Shown here in pieces: positions 17,962 through 58,239 of a DNA stretch of 64,000 nucleotides; the stretch's first letter is position 1; each line of letters starts with the position of its first letter. The position numbers and the translations under genes are program-made. Below the pieces are notes generated by a model. It saw nothing but the letters and a program-made list of their open reading frames with translations. It did not search any database and had not been told where the DNA came from. Where the stretch lies: NCBI RefSeq assembly GCF_900115555.1, contig NZ_FOWX01000026.1, positions 1-64,000 on the forward strand, written 5' to 3'. This DNA is from Pseudomonas borbori. Its GTDB lineage: Bacteria > Pseudomonadota > Gammaproteobacteria > Pseudomonadales > Pseudomonadaceae.

Positions 17962-19623
<1,662 letters not shown>

Positions 19624-20653: not shown

Positions 20654-22315
20654 ATGAGTACGGCACAAACAGCAGTACCTGCATCCTCCCACCTGACTGC
20701 CAATTGGCATTCGATTGACTGGGAGACCAGTCATCAACAGGTGAGAGGGCTACAGGTACGAATCGCGAAGGCAGCTAAGAACCAACAATGGCGCCGGGTG
20801 AAAGCCCTACAGCGCATGCTGGTTCGCTCATTCGCCGCCAAGGCATTGGCGGTGAAACGAGTCACTGAAAACCGGGGTCGTAGGACTCCGGGTGTCGATG
20901 GGGAAACCTGGAGCACACCTGAAAGTAAGTGGGGAGCCATATTCCGGCTAAAGCGAACGGGTTACCAGCCCCGGCCACTGCGACGGGTCTACATACCCAA
21001 AGCGAATGGTCAGCGCCGACCGCTGGGAATACCAACGATGCTGGATAGGGCCATGCAGGCGTTATACCTGCTGGCACTCGAACCGGTATCTGAAACCACA
21101 GCCGACAGAAATTCCTATGGTTTTCGTCCTTACCGATCCACGGCAGACGCAATCGAGCAATTGTTCGTCAATCTCGGTCGCAAACACTCTGCGCAGTGGG
21201 TCATGGAGGGTGATATCAAAGGGTGCTTCGACAATATCAACCATGACTGGCTGATCACCAATATCCCATTGGACAAGGTGGTCTTACGGAAATGGTTGAA
21301 GGCAGGGTATATGGAATCCGGCCTACTGAACCCAACCGAAGCGGGGACTCCGCAAGGAGGCATCATCTCCCCGGTGCTGGCCAATATGGCGCTTGATGGT
21401 CTGGAAAAGGTGCTTGAGTCTCGATTCGGGCAACGCAATACCAAAGCCAGCTACAAGACCAAGGTCAACTATGTGCGTTACGCGGACGATTTCGTCATCA
21501 CCGGTATTTCGAAAGATCTGCTGGAGAACGAGGTTAAACCTATCGTCGATGCCTTTATGGCAGAGCGTGGGTTGAGCCTCGCGGTGGAGAAGACGTTGTT
21601 CACGCATGTATCGGAGGGTTTCGACTTCCTTGGTCAGAATGCTCGCAAGTACGGTGACAAGCTGCTGATAAAGCCAGCCCACAAGAACGTGAAAGCATTT
21701 TTGGCAAAGGTGAAGGCACTAATTGATGGAAACAAAACGCTGCCGGCCAGCTTATTGATAGACAAGCTCAACCCCGTCATTCGGGGGTGGGCCAACTACC
21801 ACAGGCCGGTGGTCGCCAAGCAGACCTTCAATTATGTGGATTACAGGATCTGGAAATTGCTATGGCGATGGTGCAGGCGGCGACATTTGAATCGCTGCAA
21901 ACGCTGGATCAAGGAAAAGTACTTCAAGTGTGTGGGAACACGCAGTTGGGTATTTTCCGGGCTTCATCCCAGCGGCAAACTGGCCACCTTGCTGTATGCC
22001 AGCGACGTCCCGATCAAGCGGCATACCAAAATCAGAGCGGAAGCCAATCCTTATGATCCGGCAGACGAGACGTACTTCGAGGAAAGATTAGAATACGCCT
22101 GGAGGAACTCGGACGAAGGTAAACGGAAAACGCTGAGGCTTTGGATTGCCCAGAGCAAGCGCTGTCCCATGTGCAAGCAATTGATCACGTTCGATACGGG
22201 GTGGAACATCCACCACATCGTCGAGCGGCACAAAGGCGGAGGCGACGAACTGGAAAATTTGGTCTTGCTGCATCCCAACTGTCATCGGCAGCTACACGCT
22301 CAGAGAAAACTGTAA
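20654..22315 (+). CDS. ltrA: Group II intron reverse transcriptase/maturase with HNH endonuclease (LtrA-like)
   Basis: The 553-residue intron-encoded protein. The reverse transcriptase domain (about 60-300) has GDIKGCFDNI (186-195), TPQGGIISP (232-240) and the catalytic YADD (276-279). The maturase X domain covers about 310-440 (including LNPVIRGWANYH). A C-terminal HNH/En domain has the CPMC pair (504-507), IHH (519-521) and HPNCH (541-545). It therefore appears able to assist splicing and to retrohome into DNA by target-primed reverse transcription. ATG at 20654 follows GGAGGAACGCAAG. No frameshift or lost catalytic residue is visible, so it is probably functional. Confidence 0.97.
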   Translation: MSTAQTAVPASSHLTANWHSIDWETSHQQVRGLQVRIAKAAKNQQWRRVKALQRMLVRSFAAKALAVKRVTENRGRRTPGVDGETWSTPESKWGAIFRLKRTGYQPRPLRRVYIPKANGQRRPLGIPTMLDRAMQALYLLALEPVSETTADRNSYGFRPYRSTADAIEQLFVNLGRKHSAQWVMEGDIKGCFDNINHDWLITNIPLDKVVLRKWLKAGYMESGLLNPTEAGTPQGGIISPVLANMALDGLEKVLESRFGQRNTKASYKTKVNYVRYADDFVITGISKDLLENEVKPIVDAFMAERGLSLAVEKTLFTHVSEGFDFLGQNARKYGDKLLIKPAHKNVKAFLAKVKALIDGNKTLPASLLIDKLNPVIRGWANYHRPVVAKQTFNYVDYRIWKLLWRWCRRRHLNRCKRWIKEKYFKCVGTRSWVFSGLHPSGKLATLLYASDVPIKRHTKIRAEANPYDPADETYFEERLEYAWRNSDEGKRKTLRLWIAQSKRCPMCKQLITFDTGWNIHHIVERHKGGGDELENLVLLHPNCHRQLHAQRKL

Positions 22316-49970: not shown

Positions 49971-50978
49971 TCAATCCTTGCGGCGTTTCAGCTGGTCGGT
50001 CAGTTGGGTCGGCAGGTTGCGGATGATCAGGGTGCCCTGGCTCTCGTCGTATTCGACTTTCGAGCCGAGCAGATGCGCCTCGAAGCTGATCGACAGGCCT
50101 TCGGCGCGACCGGTGAAGCGTTGAAACTGGCTGAGGGTGCGCTTGTCCGCGGGGATCTCCGGCGACAGGCCGTAATCCTTGTTGCGGATATGCTCGTAGA
50201 AGGCCCGCGGGCGCTCCTCGTCGATCAGCCCGGACAATTCCTGCAAGCCCATGGGCTCGCCGAGCTTGGCCTGGCTGCTGGCGTAGTCGACCAGCGTCTT
50301 GGTCTTCTCGCGGGCAGCTTCTTCCGGCAGGTCCTCGCTTTCGACGAAGTCGCTGAAGGCCTTGAGCAGGGTGCGGGTTTCGCCCGGGCCGTCGACGCCT
50401 TCCTGGCAGCCGATGAAGTCGCGGAAGTACTCCGAGACCTTCTTGCCATTCTTGCCCTTGATAAAGGAGATGTACTGCTTGGAGTTGGCGTTGTTCTGCC
50501 ATTCGGAAATGTTGATCCGCGCCGCCAGGTGCAACTGGCCCAGGTCCAGGTGCTTGGCCGGGGTCACGTCCAGCGCCTCGTTGACCGCCACGCCTTCGCT
50601 GTGATGGAGCAGGGCGATCACCAGGTAGTCGGTCATGCCCTGCTGGTAGTGGGCGAACAGCACGTGGCCGCCGGTGGAGAGGTTGGACTCCTCCATCAGC
50701 TTCTGCAGGTGTTCGACCGCCTGGCGGCTGAACGCGGCGAAATCCTGGCCAGCGTCCAGATAGGTCTTCAGCCAGCCGCTGAACGGGTAGGCGCCGGACT
50801 CGGCGTGAAACAGGCCCCAGGCCTTGCCCTGCTTGGCGTTGTAGCTCTCGTTGAGGTCGGCGAGCATGTTCTCGATGGCCTGCGAGGCGCCCAGTTCATT
50901 GTTGCGGGCATGCAGCACGGCGGGCGTGCCATCGGGTTTCTTGTCGATCAGGTGGACGATGCAGTGGCGGATCGGCAT
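49971..50978 (-). CDS. yejK: Nucleoid-associated protein YejK (NdpA)
   Basis: A 335-residue nucleoid-associated protein of the NdpA/YejK family. The sequence [29 protein letters not shown] and the later FKGKNG-like [27 protein letters not shown] are conserved. It binds nucleoid DNA; a specific role is not established. It borders the unusual minus-strand island (51034-56725), whose last gene ends 56 bases beyond its start. This junction marks the left edge of the island. Confidence 0.95.
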
Positions 50979-51033
50979 GGGGGTTCTCGTCGGTTAAACG
51001 GAAAAGATGGCGCAGTTTACCCCGACTCAATGC

Positions 51034-51738
51034 TCAAGAATCTTCCAGTTGGCTGGAATAGTGGTTGTAGATGAACCGGTTGTAGAACAGATAGGCAGCG
51101 CCGCCGATGCAGGCCGACACGATACTCGCCAGGGCCATGGCTCCATAGATGGGTAGCGGCAGGCTTGGCAGGTACTTGCCCAGCCAATCGAGGATCAAGC
51201 CTTGCATAAGGACAACGGATGAAGGCTTGAGCGCGAGCCCGTATAGACCACAACTGATATAGGTCGCCACGGCCCAGCGGAAAGCGATTAGGCGGCTCAA
51301 GGGGACGGTCCAGTCTCGCAGGCGTTCATCGGGGAGCGTGAGCAGTTCGTGGCAGATGGCCTTGCTATCGCTCAGATCCTGTAGCAGTTCGTTGGCCTCG
51401 GCATTGAGCTTCGCCCCCAGTGCGCTCCCTGCGTGAAACATGCCGTCCTTGCGGCGCCGCAAGTGCTGGCCTTCGCTGGCAACCCGCGTCAGGCGCTTCT
51501 CGATCTGTTCGATATGCGCTTCGACTTGGGTCAGCTCTTCCTCTTCATACTCTTGCAGCAAGATATCCGCTTCGGCTGGCGTCCTGGGGTATTTGCCGTA
51601 AAGCAACTCACAGGCCACCCAGCCAAGCCAGATGACCAAGGTGGCCAGAACCGTGAAGATGATCAGCAGCAGGCTCAGTAGCCAGATGATCAGCAAGCCG
51701 ATGGGGTTTTGCTTCTTTTTTCTGCTCATGGCGGTCAT
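51034..51738 (-). CDS. Island gene 6: membrane protein, hypothetical
   Basis: A 234-residue protein. An N-terminal double or long transmembrane stretch (about 10-42), a central helical coiled coil (about 60-130, EEEELTQVEAHIEQIEKRLTRV), then two hydrophobic segments near 155-185 and 193-218. I do not recognise a family. The start at ATG 51738 overlaps the stop of the preceding gene (ATGA), and the next in-frame ATG at 51729 is an alternative. It is the last gene of a six-gene operon. A role as membrane partner of the NTPases is possible but is inference. Confidence 0.75.
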   Translation of the reverse strand: MTAMSRKKKQNPIGLLIIWLLSLLLIIFTVLATLVIWLGWVACELLYGKYPRTPAEADILLQEYEEEELTQVEAHIEQIEKRLTRVASEGQHLRRRKDGMFHAGSALGAKLNAEANELLQDLSDSKAICHELLTLPDERLRDWTVPLSRLIAFRWAVATYISCGLYGLALKPSSVVLMQGLILDWLGKYLPSLPLPIYGAMALASIVSACIGGAAYLFYNRFIYNHYSSQLEDS

Positions 51739-52331
51739 CAATAGGGGAAAGCGATATTGGCGTCACGTGAAGGGGCGCGGCCTTTGGTATGGCGCATCAT
51801 CTGGGTAATCAGGGTGCGGCATTCGTCGCGTTTCTGCTTGTGGCTGAACATCAACTGATAGGAGCCGAAGTCGCCCGACAGGTTGAGGGCGAAGCGCTTT
51901 CTACGGAAGTTGCCTCGGCCGATCCGCAAGTTATCGTTGTCCAGGCGCTCGATGTCGGTAATAGCCACGCTGATACGCCTGGCATGATCGAAGAAGCGGC
52001 GCAGGCTCAGAATGTCATGCAGGCTGTTCTCGAGGTCGTCCGCGCTAAAACTGAGGGTCGCACTACGCGGGTCAATCCTGATCCCGGCGGCTTGTGCGCG
52101 CCAGACTCTCCAGGCGAACAGGCTGGCCACGACCGCGCTGGCGAACAGCCAGAACCACGGCCAGCCTCTCGGTAGAAAATCACCGGCAAGCATCCCCAGC
52201 AGCATGCCGCCGCCAATTGCCAGGGCCGCGGCGAACCAGAGCCAGCATTTGAGGGTGGTGAATAGCGCATGCCAGATGTCCACTACTATGTATGTCTTGC
52301 CGTACAGGTCGCGTCGGTTTTTACGCATCAT
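51738..52331 (-). CDS. Island gene 5: membrane protein, hypothetical
   Basis: A 197-residue protein with two adjacent transmembrane helices (about 25-75: LWFAAALAIGGGMLLGMLAG, then WPWFWLFASAVVASLFAWRV) and a C-terminal soluble domain of about 110 residues, with beta-rich sequence and DNDNLRIGRGNFRRKRFALNLSGDFGSYQLMF. The soluble part resembles PH-like or photosystem-type barrels only loosely; I assign none. The start at 52331 is two bases after the stop of the tail-anchored gene, and its stop overlaps the next start. Confidence 0.72.
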   Translation of the reverse strand: MMRKNRRDLYGKTYIVVDIWHALFTTLKCWLWFAAALAIGGGMLLGMLAGDFLPRGWPWFWLFASAVVASLFAWRVWRAQAAGIRIDPRSATLSFSADDLENSLHDILSLRRFFDHARRISVAITDIERLDNDNLRIGRGNFRRKRFALNLSGDFGSYQLMFSHKQKRDECRTLITQMMRHTKGRAPSRDANIAFPY

Positions 52332-52333
52332 GG

Positions 52334-52702
52334 TTAGCCACGCACTAAAAAGAAGACGGCCGCCAGGGCGACGAGTAAGCCAGGCAGATAGAAATGCCAA
52401 TTGGCGATTTCATTGAGCGGACGCGAGTGCCACGAACTTTCCACCGGCTCTTGAAGACGCGGCGCGCGGTGGGCTGGCTCGGGACGCGAGTATGGCTCGG
52501 CCGCAGGCGGTTCCTGAGCTGGCGGTTCGTCCGCTAGGGAAACAGGCTCGTACTCTTCCTGCTCATCTTCCCCCACGTCATCGGTGCAATTTTCCAAGGC
52601 TTGCCTGAAGGCGTTTTCCACACCTTGCAACAGTTCGACGCCATAGGCATCGATATAGGCGTGGGTATGCCGAAGGCTGGTTTTCAGCGTGTCATCGGTC
52701 AT
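52334..52702 (-). CDS. Island gene 4: tail-anchored protein, hypothetical
   Basis: A 122-residue protein. The N-terminal 45 residues look helical (HAYIDAYGVELLQGVENAFRQALENC), the middle is acidic then proline-rich (about 50-90), and the last 20 residues form one transmembrane helix (WHFYLPGLLVALAAVFFLV). It is thus probably tail-anchored in the inner membrane with a cytoplasmic domain. It starts four bases inside the preceding AAA+ gene (52699-52702). No homologue is recognised. Confidence 0.72.
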   Translation of the reverse strand: MTDDTLKTSLRHTHAYIDAYGVELLQGVENAFRQALENCTDDVGEDEQEEYEPVSLADEPPAQEPPAAEPYSRPEPAHRAPRLQEPVESSWHSRPLNEIANWHFYLPGLLVALAAVFFLVRG

Positions 52703-54036
52703 GTCGGTATATCCGCTGCCGTCAGGGTGCAGAGTTGTTCGCGGGTCGGGTTCGTGACGTGGGACAGGCGATTGGCATGCAGTTGCATGACTTTCTCGAA
52801 GAAGGTGCGCACCTCGCGGGCATTGCCGAAATGCTCGCCGCGCTTGTCCCAGATGGTCTTGATGGCTTGTGCGCTTTTGTTCAGGGCGTCGGCCTGCAAC
52901 TTAAGCTCATGTTGGTCGCATAGCCGCAGGAAAATCTTCATCAGCTCGGGGCCGCTGTAGTCATCGAAATGGATATAGCGGGTGAAGCGCGATTGCAGTC
53001 CGGGGTTGACGCGGATGAACTCCTGCATCTCTTCGGTATAGCCCGCAACTATCACGATCAGGTCGTCGCGGTGATCCTCCATCATCTTTAGCAGGGTATC
53101 CACGGCTTCCTTGCCATAGTCTCCGCTGGAGCGGTCTACCACCAGCGAGTAGGCCTCATCGATAAACAGCACGCCACCCAGCGCGCTCTCGACCACCTCG
53201 CGTACTTGCACGGGAGTTTGCCCGAGGTACTGGGCGACCAGTTTTGAACGGTCGGTTTCCACTAGATGACCTTTGCGCAGCAGGCCGACATCCCGGTAGA
53301 TGTCGGCCACCAGGCGGGCGACAGTGGTTTTGCCGGTGCCAGGGTTGCCGGTGAAAACCATATGCATGGAAGTGGGCGCGACAGGCAGGTCATTTTCACG
53401 GCGGTTAAGCATATAGCGGGCGAAGTTGCTGCTGTTGCGTACCTCGCGCTTGACGCTATCCAGACCGATCAGGCTTTCCAATTCACGTAGCGCTTCGCCG
53501 GGCACCTTCTGGCTTGCGGTTTCGGAAGCGGCTGGGGCGCTTGTGGACGTTGTCAGGCTGTCCAGCCGAAAGTGACGGCGGATCGGTGCCAGCACTTGCT
53601 CGGTTCGGTCTATGTCTTCCAGCGTCTTTTCGCCATCCCAGGCGGTAGCCGCTTGAATCAAGGTGTCCAGGCAGGGGTAGACCCCCTCGCAAAAGCCTGG
53701 CTGCAAGCGCTCGGCGATCAGCAGGAAGGCGGGCAGTACATTGGGGTCGAACGGTACGTTCTTCTGCCGCAAGGCCCGGTCGGCATCGTTCAGCTCGCTG
53801 ACAGTAAGGTCGTTGGCCAGGATTTGATTGAGGAACTGCTTATGCACCCGACCGACCCGCTCATCACCCGTCATCACGTAGTCGAGCATGGGGAACAGCC
53901 AGCCAACGGTCAGTAGCGTCAACGAATGCGGCAGCCTGGGATTCGCCCGGGCAAAGCGTTCGTCGAGACCATTGCTGATCAGTTGGTCGAGCATATGCAT
54001 CATGGCGATTTTGGCGTCGTTGAGATGCATGGTCAA
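52699..54036 (-). CDS. Island gene 3: CbxX/SpoVK-type AAA+ ATPase
   Basis: A 445-residue ATPase. The AAA+ module (about 180-445) has Walker A GNPGTGKT (230-237), a YLGQT loop, Walker B VLFIDEA (289-295), and the sensor region ending GLQSRFTRYIHFDDYS. It belongs to the CbxX/CfxQ/SpoVK group of remodelling ATPases. The N-terminal 160 residues are helical and may be TerB-like (AAATAWDGEKTLEDID-type signature), with moderate confidence only. The start ATG 54036 overlaps the KAP gene stop by four bases. AAA+ remodellers of this type work with a partner substrate protein, and none is recognised here. Confidence 0.85.
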   Translation of the reverse strand: MTMHLNDAKIAMMHMLDQLISNGLDERFARANPRLPHSLTLLTVGWLFPMLDYVMTGDERVGRVHKQFLNQILANDLTVSELNDADRALRQKNVPFDPNVLPAFLLIAERLQPGFCEGVYPCLDTLIQAATAWDGEKTLEDIDRTEQVLAPIRRHFRLDSLTTSTSAPAASETASQKVPGEALRELESLIGLDSVKREVRNSSNFARYMLNRRENDLPVAPTSMHMVFTGNPGTGKTTVARLVADIYRDVGLLRKGHLVETDRSKLVAQYLGQTPVQVREVVESALGGVLFIDEAYSLVVDRSSGDYGKEAVDTLLKMMEDHRDDLIVIVAGYTEEMQEFIRVNPGLQSRFTRYIHFDDYSGPELMKIFLRLCDQHELKLQADALNKSAQAIKTIWDKRGEHFGNAREVRTFFEKVMQLHANRLSHVTNPTREQLCTLTAADIPT

Positions 54037-55991
54037 TTAGTGCCAGATAGTTCGTAAGCCTCTATTGCAGAGTCTATGAAGTTCTTTATAGCGCTGAATT
54101 CTTCAGTTTTATTGAGTTTTTTAGTGTCTATTTCAAGTGACTTTTGTGTTAGGTCTTCCGGGAGGTGGAACTCGTAAGTGCTTCCGTCTTTGTCCCAGGC
54201 GTCAAGGGCCGTAAGCTTTTTCATTGTTGCACGGAATTTTGTGGCGGCGCGGTAGGGGGCGCTGGCATGTATATATACAGAGAATGTTTTGTATTCTTTT
54301 TCCCAAAATATTTCTATTTTGCTGATTGTTGGATTGTTGGTTTCATGAGTCAGTGTTCTGCTGCCGCTTTCTCCATGGCGGCGAATAGCATATTGATTTT
54401 CGGGTTCATCAAGTTCACTGTAGGGATACCCAGAGTCTTTCATGTAGTTAATTATTTCTTGTGCAATAAGTCTGCAGTTATGCGTTACGCTATCTTCTCT
54501 GTTGCTTTTCTTTTTGTTTTGGGGTGGGAGGTCGGTGCTTGTGATGCTGACGGAGTTTAATACTTCGCCAAGTATTTGAAAACCTTCGTTTCCTTCGTTT
54601 CCTTCGTTATTGCTTTTAATTGCTTCATTCAAGGTGTTGATTATATCCAAAATGTCTTCTGATTTATTTTTTAAGTATTGATGTTTCCCTGTTAAGGTGA
54701 TTAGCGCTTTTTGCCATTCTGTTTCTGCATTTTTTCCATAAAGACTGATTTGTTCATCACTTGTGCTTTTGTCAATGCCCCAAGACTTTGATACGGCGGC
54801 AACATCCCAATTTAGAAAGTCGGAGTCGGCTAATAGTGCTTTATGAATGTCGGGGAAGTTTATCTGGATGCATACGATGATAAATTGTATTTTGATAAAC
54901 AATTTTTCGTAGTCATCAGGTTTTTTTTGAAAGGTGCCGTTTTTTTTCTCTATTTTTAGAGTTGTTTTGTTGTCTTCTGATTGCTTAATTATCCTTAGGA
55001 GCGACATTGTATTAACTACACGCTTGACGCTGCGGGGAACACCTTCAGTTGCTTTCAGAACTACTTTAGCTAGAATGTTTTGGTCGTGAGTGTCTATATC
55101 GATGCCGAGTGTGTTGAAGAATTCTTTTAATAGTGGGGTGATATTTTTTTTGTAGGCAGCTGTTGGCATTGAAAATGGAATCTGGATGATTTTATCAAAA
55201 TATTGGCGAAATTCTCTTTCATTCTCATGGTTTTTTTCGCCGAATTTTTCTCGTAAGCCTTTTATTATCACGTCATAATCAACAGCTAATACGGAGACTA
55301 GGCCTGGAATGTCGAAGATATTTTTCAATACGTCAAGTATTTCAACTGCTGTGTGCGGTTGGATCCTGTCAAGGTCGTCGACGAAAATGACAAAGCGCTG
55401 GATGCTTGTTCTGTCTATAACTTCTTGGGTGGCTCCGCAGAGGCTTTCGCGTAATTTTTTTAGGGTTTGCGATGGTTTATATTGGTCTTCCTGTTGATTT
55501 TGTTGAGAATCGCCACCTTCAACTCCTGCATAGCTGCGAACAGCAATTTTAGCCGCTTGTATGGCGATACCGCCTATTATTTTTCCGGCCTTTTGTAGGT
55601 GAGAATCTTCATTTAGGATTTTTTTCTTTAATTCAGGATTAATGCCGTCATTGGATTTAATTTTATCCAGCATTTCACTGTGAACGCTTTCAAGTAGCGA
55701 GATCGCAATGTGGCCGCTTGCACCTGACGTGAACAGTGACTGCTGCCACGCGTTGACATTGATACAGATGCACTCCCCTGTGCTTTCCAACTCGCGTTGA
55801 AGCATATTGATCAAGCTGGTTTTCCCGCTGCCCCAACCTCCTTGGATACCAATGGTGATAGGCGCGTCGGCGATCTTGATAAACTCGACCAGCCCTTTGG
55901 CATACTGATTATTCTTGAGGGTGTCGTTATCGGCATTTAGCAGTGGCTGGTCACTGATGCAGCTTTTGATTATGGATTGTTGTTCGGACAT
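54033..55991 (-). CDS. Island gene 2: KAP-family P-loop NTPase
   Basis: A 652-residue NTPase of the KAP type. Walker A GGWGSGKT is at 51-58, Walker B FVIFVDDLDRI at 200-210, and the KAP-specific region IPGLVSVLAVDYDVI follows. A hydrophobic helix at about 137-156 may be the membrane insertion typical of KAP proteins. The C-terminal 250 residues have no recognised domain and include three in-frame copies of NEG. Base composition is clearly AT-rich, unlike all neighbours, which points to recent transfer of at least this gene. Its stop overlaps the AAA+ start. KAP NTPases are known in some anti-phage systems, such as QatA. Confidence 0.88.
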   Translation of the reverse strand: MSEQQSIIKSCISDQPLLNADNDTLKNNQYAKGLVEFIKIADAPITIGIQGGWGSGKTSLINMLQRELESTGECICINVNAWQQSLFTSGASGHIAISLLESVHSEMLDKIKSNDGINPELKKKILNEDSHLQKAGKIIGGIAIQAAKIAVRSYAGVEGGDSQQNQQEDQYKPSQTLKKLRESLCGATQEVIDRTSIQRFVIFVDDLDRIQPHTAVEILDVLKNIFDIPGLVSVLAVDYDVIIKGLREKFGEKNHENEREFRQYFDKIIQIPFSMPTAAYKKNITPLLKEFFNTLGIDIDTHDQNILAKVVLKATEGVPRSVKRVVNTMSLLRIIKQSEDNKTTLKIEKKNGTFQKKPDDYEKLFIKIQFIIVCIQINFPDIHKALLADSDFLNWDVAAVSKSWGIDKSTSDEQISLYGKNAETEWQKALITLTGKHQYLKNKSEDILDIINTLNEAIKSNNEGNEGNEGFQILGEVLNSVSITSTDLPPQNKKKSNREDSVTHNCRLIAQEIINYMKDSGYPYSELDEPENQYAIRRHGESGSRTLTHETNNPTISKIEIFWEKEYKTFSVYIHASAPYRAATKFRATMKKLTALDAWDKDGSTYEFHLPEDLTQKSLEIDTKKLNKTEEFSAIKNFIDSAIEAYELSGTN

Positions 55992-56038
55992 TAAATACTC
56001 CTTGCAGATAGGGAAAATAAATAAAGGAAGGGCTGCAT

Positions 56039-56725
56039 CTAGCCCAATTCAGGCCATGCGCACTCAATCAACTCTTCGGTAATGTTTTCCGGATAACGCT
56101 TGTACTTGGCCCGTTGCATCAGGCAGATGCAATCCATCAGAGGTTCACCATTGGTGCCGAGAGGCATTAATGGATTGAACTTAGACAGGGCGCTGGCAAA
56201 GGTCTCCAGCAACTCGTCTTGGTCGGCGGCATAACCTTCGAGGGTGAAGGCTATGGCTTCCATGATCGCCAGCTCGATCAGCAGGGAGGAGAGCCAGTCG
56301 ACCGAATGCCGGTAGGCGAATACCCAGCGGGTTCGGTTGATCAGTAAGGGCGTCCAGAGGTTGGCGTCACGTGCACCGACCAGGCAACTGCTAATGATCA
56401 CACCTTCGATCTTGCCGCCGTTCATCGCCACTTTCTCAAGAATGCTGCTGGCACGACCATTGGCGATGCTGGTTTCGCTGCCGTGAGCGCCTATGTAGAG
56501 AATCTGGCGTTTCTCGTGGGTTTTGGTCAGATCTAGAGACAGCGCTGCCTCGAACCCTCGGGTGTCATAGAAGGTCGAGTAGTAGATGTTGAAATGGTCA
56601 TGCAGGCGTTCCAACCCCTGGAAAAAGGGTAGGGATGAGGCGCGGGTGGGGTTGTCTTTGGGCGTCCACCAGGGGGACTCAAGCAGCAAAAGTGCAAAAT
56701 CATCAAGCATGATGTCCCTATCCAT
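56039..56725 (-). CDS. Island gene 1: putative CHAT/caspase-like peptidase
   Basis: A 228-residue protein. The core ILYIGAHGSETSI (about 75-87) and GVIISSCLVGARD (108-120) place H81 and C114 at the ends of predicted strands, as in CHAT and other caspase-fold peptidases. The next segment RWVFAYRHSVDWLSSLLIELAIMEA fits the strand and helix that follow the catalytic Cys in CHAT proteins. There is no signal peptide. Two starts are possible: ATG 56725, or ATG 56710 with a better ribosome-binding site (TAGGGA). The peptidase assignment is inference from pattern; no database search was run. It is the first gene of the six-gene operon. Confidence 0.65.
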   Translation of the reverse strand: MDRDIMLDDFALLLLESPWWTPKDNPTRASSLPFFQGLERLHDHFNIYYSTFYDTRGFEAALSLDLTKTHEKRQILYIGAHGSETSIANGRASSILEKVAMNGGKIEGVIISSCLVGARDANLWTPLLINRTRWVFAYRHSVDWLSSLLIELAIMEAIAFTLEGYAADQDELLETFASALSKFNPLMPLGTNGEPLMDCICLMQRAKYKRYPENITEELIECAWPELG

Positions 56726-56806
56726 TTATTCCGTGCGGGAGGATTGATAGCACATTGCCTTTCTGGCGTCATTTATTCGTTGTGAATCAATCATTCACCG
56801 GGCGCT
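56726..56806 (-). promoter_or_regulatory. Putative promoter region of the island operon
   Basis: 81 bases separate the TAXI gene stop from the first island gene. An AT-rich segment (TTGATTCACAACGAATAAAT on the minus strand) could provide promoter elements, but no clear -35/-10 pair with normal spacing was found. Confidence 0.3.
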
Positions 56807-58150
56807 TCATGATTGAACCGTCGCGCTTGGCTCCCTCCTTTTCTGCAAGGTGTGCAGCCGCTCGATCACATAGCGCAAATGCACATGCAGCTCGTACAGC
56901 TCATTGGAGTAGGACAGCGGCACTTCGACCTTGGCCAGTTCGTCTTCCAGCTGTTCCAGGCGCTCGACTTCGGTGTCCAGGCGATCCGGCAGGGTGCCGG
57001 CATCGAGTTGCCGGTCGATCTCGCGCAGGTGCTTGTACCAGCGGTAGATGCGCGCGCGGATGCGCCAGCGATAGAGCGGGCCGACTGCCTTGAGCAGCGG
57101 GATCAGCACCACCAGCAGGGGAATCAGCAGGATGATGTAGCGGTCGGCCAATGAGGCGATGCGAAACGGCAGGTAGCGTTGCAGCAGCGGCGGGCCGTTC
57201 TTGTAGTAGTGCTCGGCGTCGCCGGACAGGGTGAAGGTCCGCGGTTCGGCGCTGGGGAAGGCGCCGGCCTTGTCCAGCAGGGTGCCGTGCTTCATCACCT
57301 CGCGGCTGGCTTCGAGGAACAGCGGCACCAGGCCGGGATGGAAACCCCGGTTGATCACCAGGGTGGCGACCGGCGAGAGGGTGATGGTGGTCTGTGGCGG
57401 GCTGTTCTGCGCCAGGTTGAGCAGTCCTTCGTCGATGGTTACGCGCTTGAGAAATGGCAGGCGCGCCTCGTAGGCGGCGGCGCGGCGAAAGTTGGCCAGG
57501 CTCAGTTCGGGGTTGGCAGCCAGCTGTTGCACTCGGGTGTTTTCCGCCGGGCCGACGAAGAAGGCGGCGTCCAGCTCGCCGGTGATCAACGCGCTGGCGG
57601 CCTTGTTGCCGCCCAGGCTCTGCCAGGTAGTGGGGTATTGCCCGGGATCGATCGCGTTGGCGTCGAGGATGGCCTCGGTTGCGGCTCGGGTGCCACTGCC
57701 TGCAGTGCCCAGGGCCAGGCGTAACGGCAGCAGGTCGGCGATACGATCGAGGCTGATGTCCCTGCGGTGGAACAGCCACAACGGTTCCTGATAGACCGCG
57801 CCCAGGCTGTGCAGGCGGGCATTGTCGGCGGCGTCGAGCTGGCGCTCCAGGCCGCTCTGCACCAGGGCGATCTCGACCTGGCTGTCTTCCGCCAGCAGCC
57901 GCTCGAGGTTGTCCCGCGAACCGGCGCTGGGCACCAGGGTCAGCTCGAAACCCTGCTTGGCCAGCTCCTGCTTGAGCTTCTCGGCAAAGATCCGGTAACC
58001 GCCGCCCTCGGCGCCGGTGGCCATGCGCGCGCTCATCGGCGGCGGCGGGGCGACGAAATAGAACACCGCACCAATCAAGGCGGCCAGCACCGGGACTATC
58101 CACAGGTTGGCCAGGAGCATGATCTTCAGGTCTTTGAGCACGCGGTGCAT
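56807..58150 (-). CDS. TAXI-family TRAP transporter solute-binding protein, membrane anchored
   Basis: A 447-residue protein. The N-terminal membrane helix (about 10-35) is followed by a TAXI periplasmic binding domain (about 40-330, with TGAEGGGYRIFAEKL and LGTAGSGTRAATEAIL), then a second TM (about 335-365) and a cytoplasmic coiled tail (about 375-447). TAXI proteins bind small acids such as glutamate for TRAP uptake. No TRAP membrane subunit is next to it, so it may act in sensing or with a distant partner. ATG 58150 is preferred (AAGGAAG upstream); an ATG at 58168 is possible. Confidence 0.9.
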   Translation of the reverse strand: MHRVLKDLKIMLLANLWIVPVLAALIGAVFYFVAPPPPMSARMATGAEGGGYRIFAEKLKQELAKQGFELTLVPSAGSRDNLERLLAEDSQVEIALVQSGLERQLDAADNARLHSLGAVYQEPLWLFHRRDISLDRIADLLPLRLALGTAGSGTRAATEAILDANAIDPGQYPTTWQSLGGNKAASALITGELDAAFFVGPAENTRVQQLAANPELSLANFRRAAAYEARLPFLKRVTIDEGLLNLAQNSPPQTTITLSPVATLVINRGFHPGLVPLFLEASREVMKHGTLLDKAGAFPSAEPRTFTLSGDAEHYYKNGPPLLQRYLPFRIASLADRYIILLIPLLVVLIPLLKAVGPLYRWRIRARIYRWYKHLREIDRQLDAGTLPDRLDTEVERLEQLEDELAKVEVPLSYSNELYELHVHLRYVIERLHTLQKRREPSATVQS

Positions 58151-58239
58151 GGGGCTTCCTTTCGACATTCTTTGCCCAAGGATAGAGGCAGGCGGCGTGC
58201 GCGGTCACTTTTGCCGGCGAATAGACGAAGGGATTGGCT

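Follow-up and report, generated by a model that had tools for sequence, protein, structure and literature searches.

Analysis of a 64,000-nucleotide stretch of Pseudomonas borbori DNA (contig NZ_FOWX01000026.1, contig C77 of a 5.27-Mb assembly; hereafter the window) revealed a compact islet of six minus-strand open reading frames (ORFs), g1 to g6, which fill positions 51034-56725 between a gene for a TAXI/NMT1-like binding protein and yejK. These encode a predicted caspase/CHAT-fold protease (g1), a KAP-family NTPase (g2), a CbbX-type AAA+ ATPase (g3) and three small proteins with hydrophobic segments (g4-g6). Comparison with related loci revealed that five of the genes (g1, g3, g4, g5 and g6) form a conserved core, and that the slot between g1 and g3 holds one of two non-homologous modules, g2 being one of them. 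The features are summarized in Table 1.

Table 1. Features of the islet and of its flanks (positions in the window; aa, amino acids).
Feature	Position	Strand	Basis
g1, CHAT/caspase-fold protein, predicted cysteine protease, 228 aa	56039..56725	-	AlphaFold2 model, structural match, invariant residues
g2, exchangeable module, KAP-family P-loop NTPase, 652 aa	54033..55991	-	PF07693 E 7.6e-39, motifs
g3, AAA+ ATPase of CbbX/SpoVK/EccA type, 445 aa	52699..54036	-	PF00004, PF17866, TIGR02881
g4, small protein, conserved N-terminus (LKTSLRHTHAYI), one C-terminal hydrophobic segment, 122 aa	52334..52702	-	hydropathy, alignment
g5, probable membrane protein, N-terminal hydrophobic region, conserved remainder (FSADDLENSLHDILSLRRFFDHA), 220 aa	51738..52400	-	alignment, hydropathy
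g6, membrane protein, hydrophobic segments near both ends, charged, perhaps coiled middle, 235 aa	51034..51741	-	alignment, hydropathy
Islet extent	51022..56843	.	blastn against L037 and L038; TAXI-yejK adjacency in L037, L038 and L040
yejK (37-kD nucleoid-associated protein), conserved downstream flank	49971..50978	-	PF04245 E 1.9e-97
TAXI/NMT1-like binding protein, conserved upstream flank	56807..58168	-	PF16868 E 1.4e-17

The ORF listing bears out an earlier note on this DNA, which had described six minus-strand genes over this span with 47 bases between g1 and g2; the other genes are spaced by a few bases, apart from an apparent 67-base overlap of g5 and g4. Alignment with relatives points to downstream ATG starts for g1 (56710), g3 (54030), g5 (52331 or 52328) and g6 (51729), and with either of these g5 starts the g5/g4 overlap disappears. 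The apparent conservation of the first 24 codons of the long g5 ORF may merely mirror g4 in another frame. The run thus forms one transcription-unit-like islet between conserved genes. The TAXI protein was found (E 1e-60) in 5 of 24 genomes, including that of the window, and three of the four others (L037, L038 and L040) have the empty site, yejK coming next after the TAXI gene with 63-384 bases between the match ends; in the fourth (L039), yejK is not present within the 1.5 kb examined. Homology of the flanks to the empty-site relatives L037 and L038 (blastn) stops at approximately 56843-56859, at the end of the TAXI gene, and restarts at approximately 51022, just upstream of yejK, so the six genes are an insertion that contains almost nothing else. 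The G+C content is 55% in g1, 41% in g2, 57-59% in g3-g6 and 63-69% in the flanking genes. No tRNA was found in the window, no integrase among the ORFs listed in the islet, and no repeat pair joining both islet ends among the 20 direct-repeat families listed (of 33) and 22 inverted pairs.

A pattern scan based on the g1 alignment, performed over a genome collection of 84,980 species, yielded at least 29 g1 loci (the patterns were short, and one locus described below, L078, was missed). Six of them (L045-L050) are close to g1 of the window (67-80% identity) and 23 are distant (26-40%); the nearest named loci are those of Pseudomonas and Stutzerimonas species. Five of the close loci (L045-L049) also encode g3 (68-72% identity) and g4, and four of these encode g5 and g6 as well, the contig of L045 ending inside g4. 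The g5 profile, found in at least 4 of 258 genomes of the family (in many genomes 11 first-look candidates were scored), added one new locus, L078. Three pairs of identical loci (L077 and L049, L079 and L047, L044 and L054) were each counted once. There are thus seven core loci (the window, L045-L049 and L078), all with the same core order, in L045 to the contig end only. Their slot between g1 and g3 is occupied by a KAP gene in two cases (the window and L046) and by a two-gene cassette, encoding a SLOG-like membrane protein (SLOG-TM) and a TIR protein, in the other five (L045, L047, L048, L049 and L078). At the 23 distant loci, no g2, g4, g5 or g6 match lies in the flank (at most 10 kb, shorter at L063 and L072), and one locus has a weak AAA match; the neighbour lists are incomplete at L055, L060, L070 and L072, where the ORF filter dropped the g1 ORF. 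The remaining close locus, L050 (10004-15014; a metagenome-assembled genome of Methylococcaceae), has g1, a gene for a SLOG-TM protein and a gene whose 731-aa product contains two TIR domains, as well as a short ORF similar to the beginning of g3; AAA domain and g4-g6 matches are absent nearby, and we regard L050 as a remnant or a minimal form.

Of the six-gene system proposed in the earlier note, the core of five genes is therefore confirmed, whereas the KAP gene is not a fixed member of it. The repeated co-occurrence at different loci which the note had sought was found, with two loci adjoining defence-type genes, and the genes are not, as the note had considered, fixed neighbours without reassortment, since the module is exchanged across loci.

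Several observations document this exchange. The TAXI/yejK site, used by four of the seven core loci, hosts both types: the KAP module in the window and in L046, and the TIR type in L045 (TAXI side, where the contig ends) and L047 (yejK side only). The g3 protein of L046 (KAP type) shares 87% identity with that of L047 (TIR type), versus 72% with that of the window (KAP type), and a tree of g3 in which the KAP carriers form a single group is rejected (difference in log likelihood 70.7; approximately unbiased test, p 0.0005). Across the seven loci the G+C content of the KAP and TIR genes (41-47%) is below that of every core gene (52-59% overall) of the same locus, and that of the SLOG gene (49-56%) is below in four loci of five. 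Apart from the exchange itself, the KAP and TIR proteins diverge unevenly along their length. Between the window and L046 the KAP protein is 57% identical in its N-terminal part versus 25% in its C-terminal part, and the corresponding values for the TIR protein are 49% versus 17% (L045/L047), 85% versus 55% (L045/L049) and 91% versus 78% (L048/L049).

The g1 protein gave no Pfam match up to E 1. Its AlphaFold2 model, built from 30 sequences (predicted local distance difference test, pLDDT, 89.5; predicted template modelling score, pTM, 0.89), has as its best structural match the CHAT domain of the activated SAVED-CHAT filament 8tl0 (VIA: Z 14.3, 174 residues, root-mean-square deviation 3.3; Foldseek against 8tl0_C: E 5.7e-6), followed by C11 proteases, gingipain and caspases (Z 10-12, caspases about 10). 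As modelled, g1 has the caspase fold of the clan CD proteases. The candidate dyad motifs are His81-Gly82 and Ser113-Cys114; H81, G82 and C114 are invariant in all 30 rows of an alignment that includes distant homologues of 26-41% identity (the fragment L072 was omitted, a second g1-like gene of L048 was added, and several rows represent the matched stretch and not the whole ORF). Judged by position and precedent, H81 and C114 probably form a His/Cys dyad of the clan CD type, and g1 is a predicted cysteine protease, as the earlier suggestion of a CHAT-like protein and putative protease had it.

Members of the g1 family were also seen in other settings. In Rahnella sp. AA (L057, 9977-14676), the gene that immediately precedes a LeoBC/LeoA dynamin-like pair (PADLOC E 2e-164 and 5e-170) is a distant member of the g1 family, a context which suggests that this protease family joins other defence operons too. 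The second g1-like gene of L048 (8470-9282) is divergent and is located between a WYL regulator gene and the core operon. Plasmid P2 of V. parahaemolyticus (L002) carries a solo g1 homologue within a series of short genes, all on one strand, whose arrangement resembles an integron cassette array.

The g3 protein contains an AAA domain (PF00004) and an AAA_lid_6 domain (PF17866), matches TIGR02881 (E 1.4e-82) and, as a family profile, the CbbX structure 3syk (E 8.2e-67), and is thus the CbxX-type AAA+ ATPase that had been predicted. Its scores against the SpoVK, CbbX and EccA equivalogs of NCBIfam (276.6, 222.6 and 245.2 bits) are all below the respective cut-offs (422.95, 459.25 and 466.65), and it was assigned to none of them. 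The N-terminal domain of g3 (residues 1 to approximately 165) is core-specific: g3 was matched at E 1e-40 or better in 26 of 274 genomes of the class, its own included, and all 28 matches outside the window begin at residue 163 or later, the sole non-core match to the N-terminal part being the short ORF of L050. Folded alone, this domain gave weak models (best pLDDT 79, the other four 53-67) with no clear structural match; the best hit, a bestrophin homologue (Z 5.5), was left without interpretation.

The identification of g2 as a KAP NTPase is confirmed by its match to PF07693 (134 bits, Pfam cut-off 20) and by both motifs of a P-loop, Walker A (residues 51-58, GGWGSGKT) and Walker B (residues 201-209, VIFVDDLDR), by which we assign it to this family. 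For g4, g5 and g6, neither Pfam nor NCBIfam gave a family match above the cut-off. Simple hydropathy analysis revealed clear membrane segments in g4 and g6, and a marginal one in g5 of the window (1.63, threshold 1.6) versus 2.46 in g5 of L048; the threshold is lenient, as single stretches of g1 and g2 also just exceed it. Three membrane proteins, as proposed previously, are hence supported, that of g5 as probable. Two matches of g5, to EACC1 (E 0.51) and SAVED_TM (E 0.091), are weak and were treated as chance.

The alternative module encodes two proteins. The first (548-556 aa) begins with a SLOG-like region containing the motifs GHRD and GLxEGAD, an assignment which weak matches suggest: YAcAr at E 0.003-0.005 in L045 and L050, not in L047, and weak matches to ShosA. 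Its hydrophobic segments match DUF4231 (E 1.9e-6, above the cut-off, in L047; 1.8e-4 in L045; 1.1e-3 in L050), and in L047 only, SLATT_3 and SLATT_4 weakly. The second protein, encoded in L045, L047-L050 and L078, has a TIR domain (E 3.9e-16 in L045 and 3.7e-13 in L047). The family scans covered L045, L047 and L050, and for L048, L049 and L078 the module type was assigned from identity to these, their SLOG-TM proteins being 70-76% identical to that of L045 or L047. For the TIR protein of L045 the closest solved chain is the NADase SARM1 (E 3.6e-20), a human nerve-death enzyme, and the WVxxEI stretch, which contains the SARM1 catalytic Glu, is aligned; within NCBIfam this TIR protein comes closest to ThcB4 of Thoeris type III (39 bits, cut-off 220). 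DUF4231 belongs to the SLATT superfamily according to PMC9812332, and SLATT proteins are predicted in PMC7159879 to be nucleotide-responsive pores that at times accompany TIR effectors.

We compared the operon with known systems. The P-loop domain of g2 matches QatA, a KAP ATPase, and the earlier note had pointed to the Qat anti-phage system. Beside QatA, Qat comprises QatB, QatC (QueC-like) and QatD (TatD-like), whereas the six proteins of the window include no match to the models of these three. Membership of Qat is unsupported: g2 scores 116.3 bits against the QatA equivalog (cut-off 600), and the other five proteins match no Qat model in PADLOC or NCBIfam. The best PADLOC model for g2 is PifA (E 5.6e-34), which covers residues 11-331 of 652, i.e. 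the KAP domain only, and leaves the C-terminal half unmatched; PifA is responsible for the exclusion of T7 by plasmid F and is not known to act with such a core. The closest solved fold to g1 is that of the SAVED-CHAT effectors, which function in type III CRISPR-Cas, but g1 consists of one domain only, lacks SAVED and any other sensor domain, and lies in a different operon. With CbbX, SpoVK and EccA, g3 has the AAA and AAA_lid_6 domains in common, but it adds its own N-terminal domain, and Rubisco, sporulation and type VII secretion genes are absent among the six.

Thoeris combines the TIR protein ThsB with a ThsA of SIR2-SLOG or TM-macro type (PMC11204291). The five sister loci similarly pair a TIR gene with a gene for a SLOG-like membrane protein, like a signal maker and its receptor, but here the modules sit inside a protease/AAA/membrane core. 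No SIR2 or macro match is present in the SLOG-TM proteins of L045, L047 and L050, and the six proteins of the window have no TIR match in Pfam or PADLOC, so the window copy was not classified as Thoeris. The MoxR-vWA (VMAP) ternary systems, as presented in PMC7159879 and PMC10907252, share with the operon an NTPase core with TIR or caspase-type parts; membership was rejected, as the six proteins have no vWA, VMAP or MoxR match in Pfam up to E 1 and the AAA domain of g3 is of the CbbX type. The parts therefore resemble known conflict domains, and the earlier statement that no named system has this combination holds for the sources searched: neither PADLOC and NCBIfam nor the literature searched describes the core combination, the three membrane families or the two-way slot, although mention in earlier surveys, one of them on SLOG/SLATT systems, is possible.

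The three core loci outside the TAXI/yejK site lie in varied surroundings. L049 is flanked by a type I restriction-modification operon and a WYL regulator gene. L048 is located between a WYL regulator gene, on the side of its second g1-like gene, and a DDE transposase gene, with a gene for an AAA protein matching IetA models nearby. L078 occupies a further site, with TAXI and yejK absent within 19 kb. The operon of L048 is 91% identical in DNA sequence to that of L078, whose genus (Stutzerimonas) also holds L049 and L047, and the label of L048, Planctomycetaceae, is consequently doubtful. At the distant g1 loci (L051-L073), a WYL-like protein is encoded in the flank of 9 of 23, a type I restriction-modification system in two and the LeoBC/LeoA pair in one, counts with no background rate for comparison; the WYL count is based on similarity to three WYL proteins and is Pfam-confirmed at L051 and L054 only, of the nine.

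The system is rare and patchy. Matches to g2 (E 1e-20) and g6 were each present in one of 298 genomes of the genus, g5 in one of 274 of the class and a close g1 in one of 234 of the order. The g1 profile was found in three of the 274 class genomes (its own, one with a clear solo copy and one weak), and the g5 profile in 3 of 56 genomes of the Stutzerimonas-like genus. Five pattern-based scans of viral contigs gave no confirmed relative, two of them having used single proteins and reached close relatives only. There was no match to g1 in 50,697 phage records, while g3 was matched in 11, in no case over 80% of its length, and the five matches listed cover the AAA part only. No DNA match to g3-g6 was found in 20,395 E. 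coli records, nor any plasmid match to g6. Matches to g2 occur in 78 plasmid records, none over 80% of its length, and the 20 listed cover the KAP domain only. The SLOG-TM protein of L047 is matched in plasmids by its SLOG part only, in two Streptomyces records; in the one inspected (L081), no TIR gene is annotated nearby. Elsewhere in the window, an ORF at 20654-22315 (plus strand, 553 aa), judged by eye to encode a reverse transcriptase/maturase of the group II intron type, follows soon after a groEL-like ORF (17974-19623), at a place where the G+C content drops for a second time (53%).

We propose, with an even balance of confidence and doubt, that the operon is a modular anti-phage system of the abortive-infection type, in which an interchangeable trigger releases a membrane-held, AAA-controlled caspase-like protease. 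The assignment of the module as trigger and of the core as executioner is drawn from the conserved N-terminal engine and diverging C-terminal part that the KAP and TIR proteins have in common. In the window, the KAP NTPase would sense infection through its fast-diverging C-terminal part. In the sister loci, this role would fall to the SARM1-like TIR protein, whose C-terminal part diverges as well; this protein may produce an NAD-derived signal, which the SLOG-SLATT membrane protein would read through its SLOG part. The g4-g6 proteins would anchor the complex at the inner membrane, g3 may act as an ATP-driven gate or remodeller, and g1, once released, could use Cys114 and His81 to cleave host or membrane targets, leading to growth arrest or death of the infected cell.

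Several points weigh against this proposal. Phage defence has been deduced, and not demonstrated, the grounds being the domains present, the patchy distribution, the exchange of modules and the genes beside two loci (L048 and L049), while yejK and the TAXI gene, the immediate neighbours in the window and the only ones considered there, are not defence genes. Neither TIR nor SLOG is encoded in the window copy, so that only relatives display the signalling half. The tree conflict comes from g3 alone; the g1, g5 and g6 trees do not decide, in the case of g5 and g6 because L045 lacks both genes. The pattern of divergence is no clean sensor signature, since the SLOG protein diverges evenly along its length (71% and 65%) and the N-terminal part of g3 is itself somewhat less conserved (68% versus 75%, window/L046). 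Finally, the counts are small, as the family is rare.

The main rival explanation, which we consider rather unlikely, reverses the roles: the module would be the effector, with SLOG-SLATT and TIR acting as a Thoeris-like signal/pore pair and KAP as a membrane-acting effector, and the core would be a sensor or safety device in which g1 and the AAA protein g3 activate or restrain the module by proteolysis. The SLOG-like, SLATT-like and TIR parts could indeed form a self-sufficient signalling pair, the SLOG-SLATT protein could, if itself a pore, make the module the effector, and effector exchange is common in defence systems. However, the C-terminal parts of KAP and TIR, which diverge rapidly, resemble recognition parts, and caspase-like proteases serve as effectors more often than as sensors. 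It is quite improbable, in our estimation, that the operon lies outside defence altogether, as an accessory system for envelope or protein-quality stress in which membrane proteins would be the targets of the AAA protein and the protease, and the module would be a stress sensor. The three membrane proteins, the CbbX-type remodelling ATPase and the presence of four of seven loci at one housekeeping site are compatible with such a role, but the sparse distribution, the several sites, the module exchange and the defence-type neighbours of L048 and L049 argue against it, as does the fact that TIR, SLOG, SLATT, KAP and CHAT domains characterize conflict systems. PMC7159879 and PMC10907252 present such domains in the same light.

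It might also be argued that a hot spot brought the genes together by chance, g1 and the KAP gene being independent cargo beside an unrelated g3-g6 operon, given that 24 of the 29 g1 loci (the 23 distant ones and L050), and likewise three plasmid copies, have no g2, g4, g5 or g6 match in the flank. The data already disfavour this, and we judge it very improbable: of the six close-clade loci found through g1 alone, five also have g3 and g4, arranged in the same order; L078, which was detected with g5 only, has g1; and g1 recurs with g3-g6 at four sites.

If the proposed trigger-and-executioner arrangement is correct, one conserved proteolytic core would be wired to two unrelated triggers, providing a natural experiment that separates sensor from effector. 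KAP NTPases and SARM1-like TIR signalling would then hold equivalent positions in one pathway, and the poorly understood KAP family would gain a testable role. The g4, g5 and g6 proteins and the N-terminal domain of g3 match no family in the libraries searched, and their structures would be worth solving. In its broadest form, which we put forward more tentatively, at somewhat less than even confidence, the operon may be a plug-in immune platform, in which cassettes encoding either a KAP NTPase or a SARM1-like TIR protein with its SLOG-SLATT partner feed distinct infection signals into one proteolytic output.

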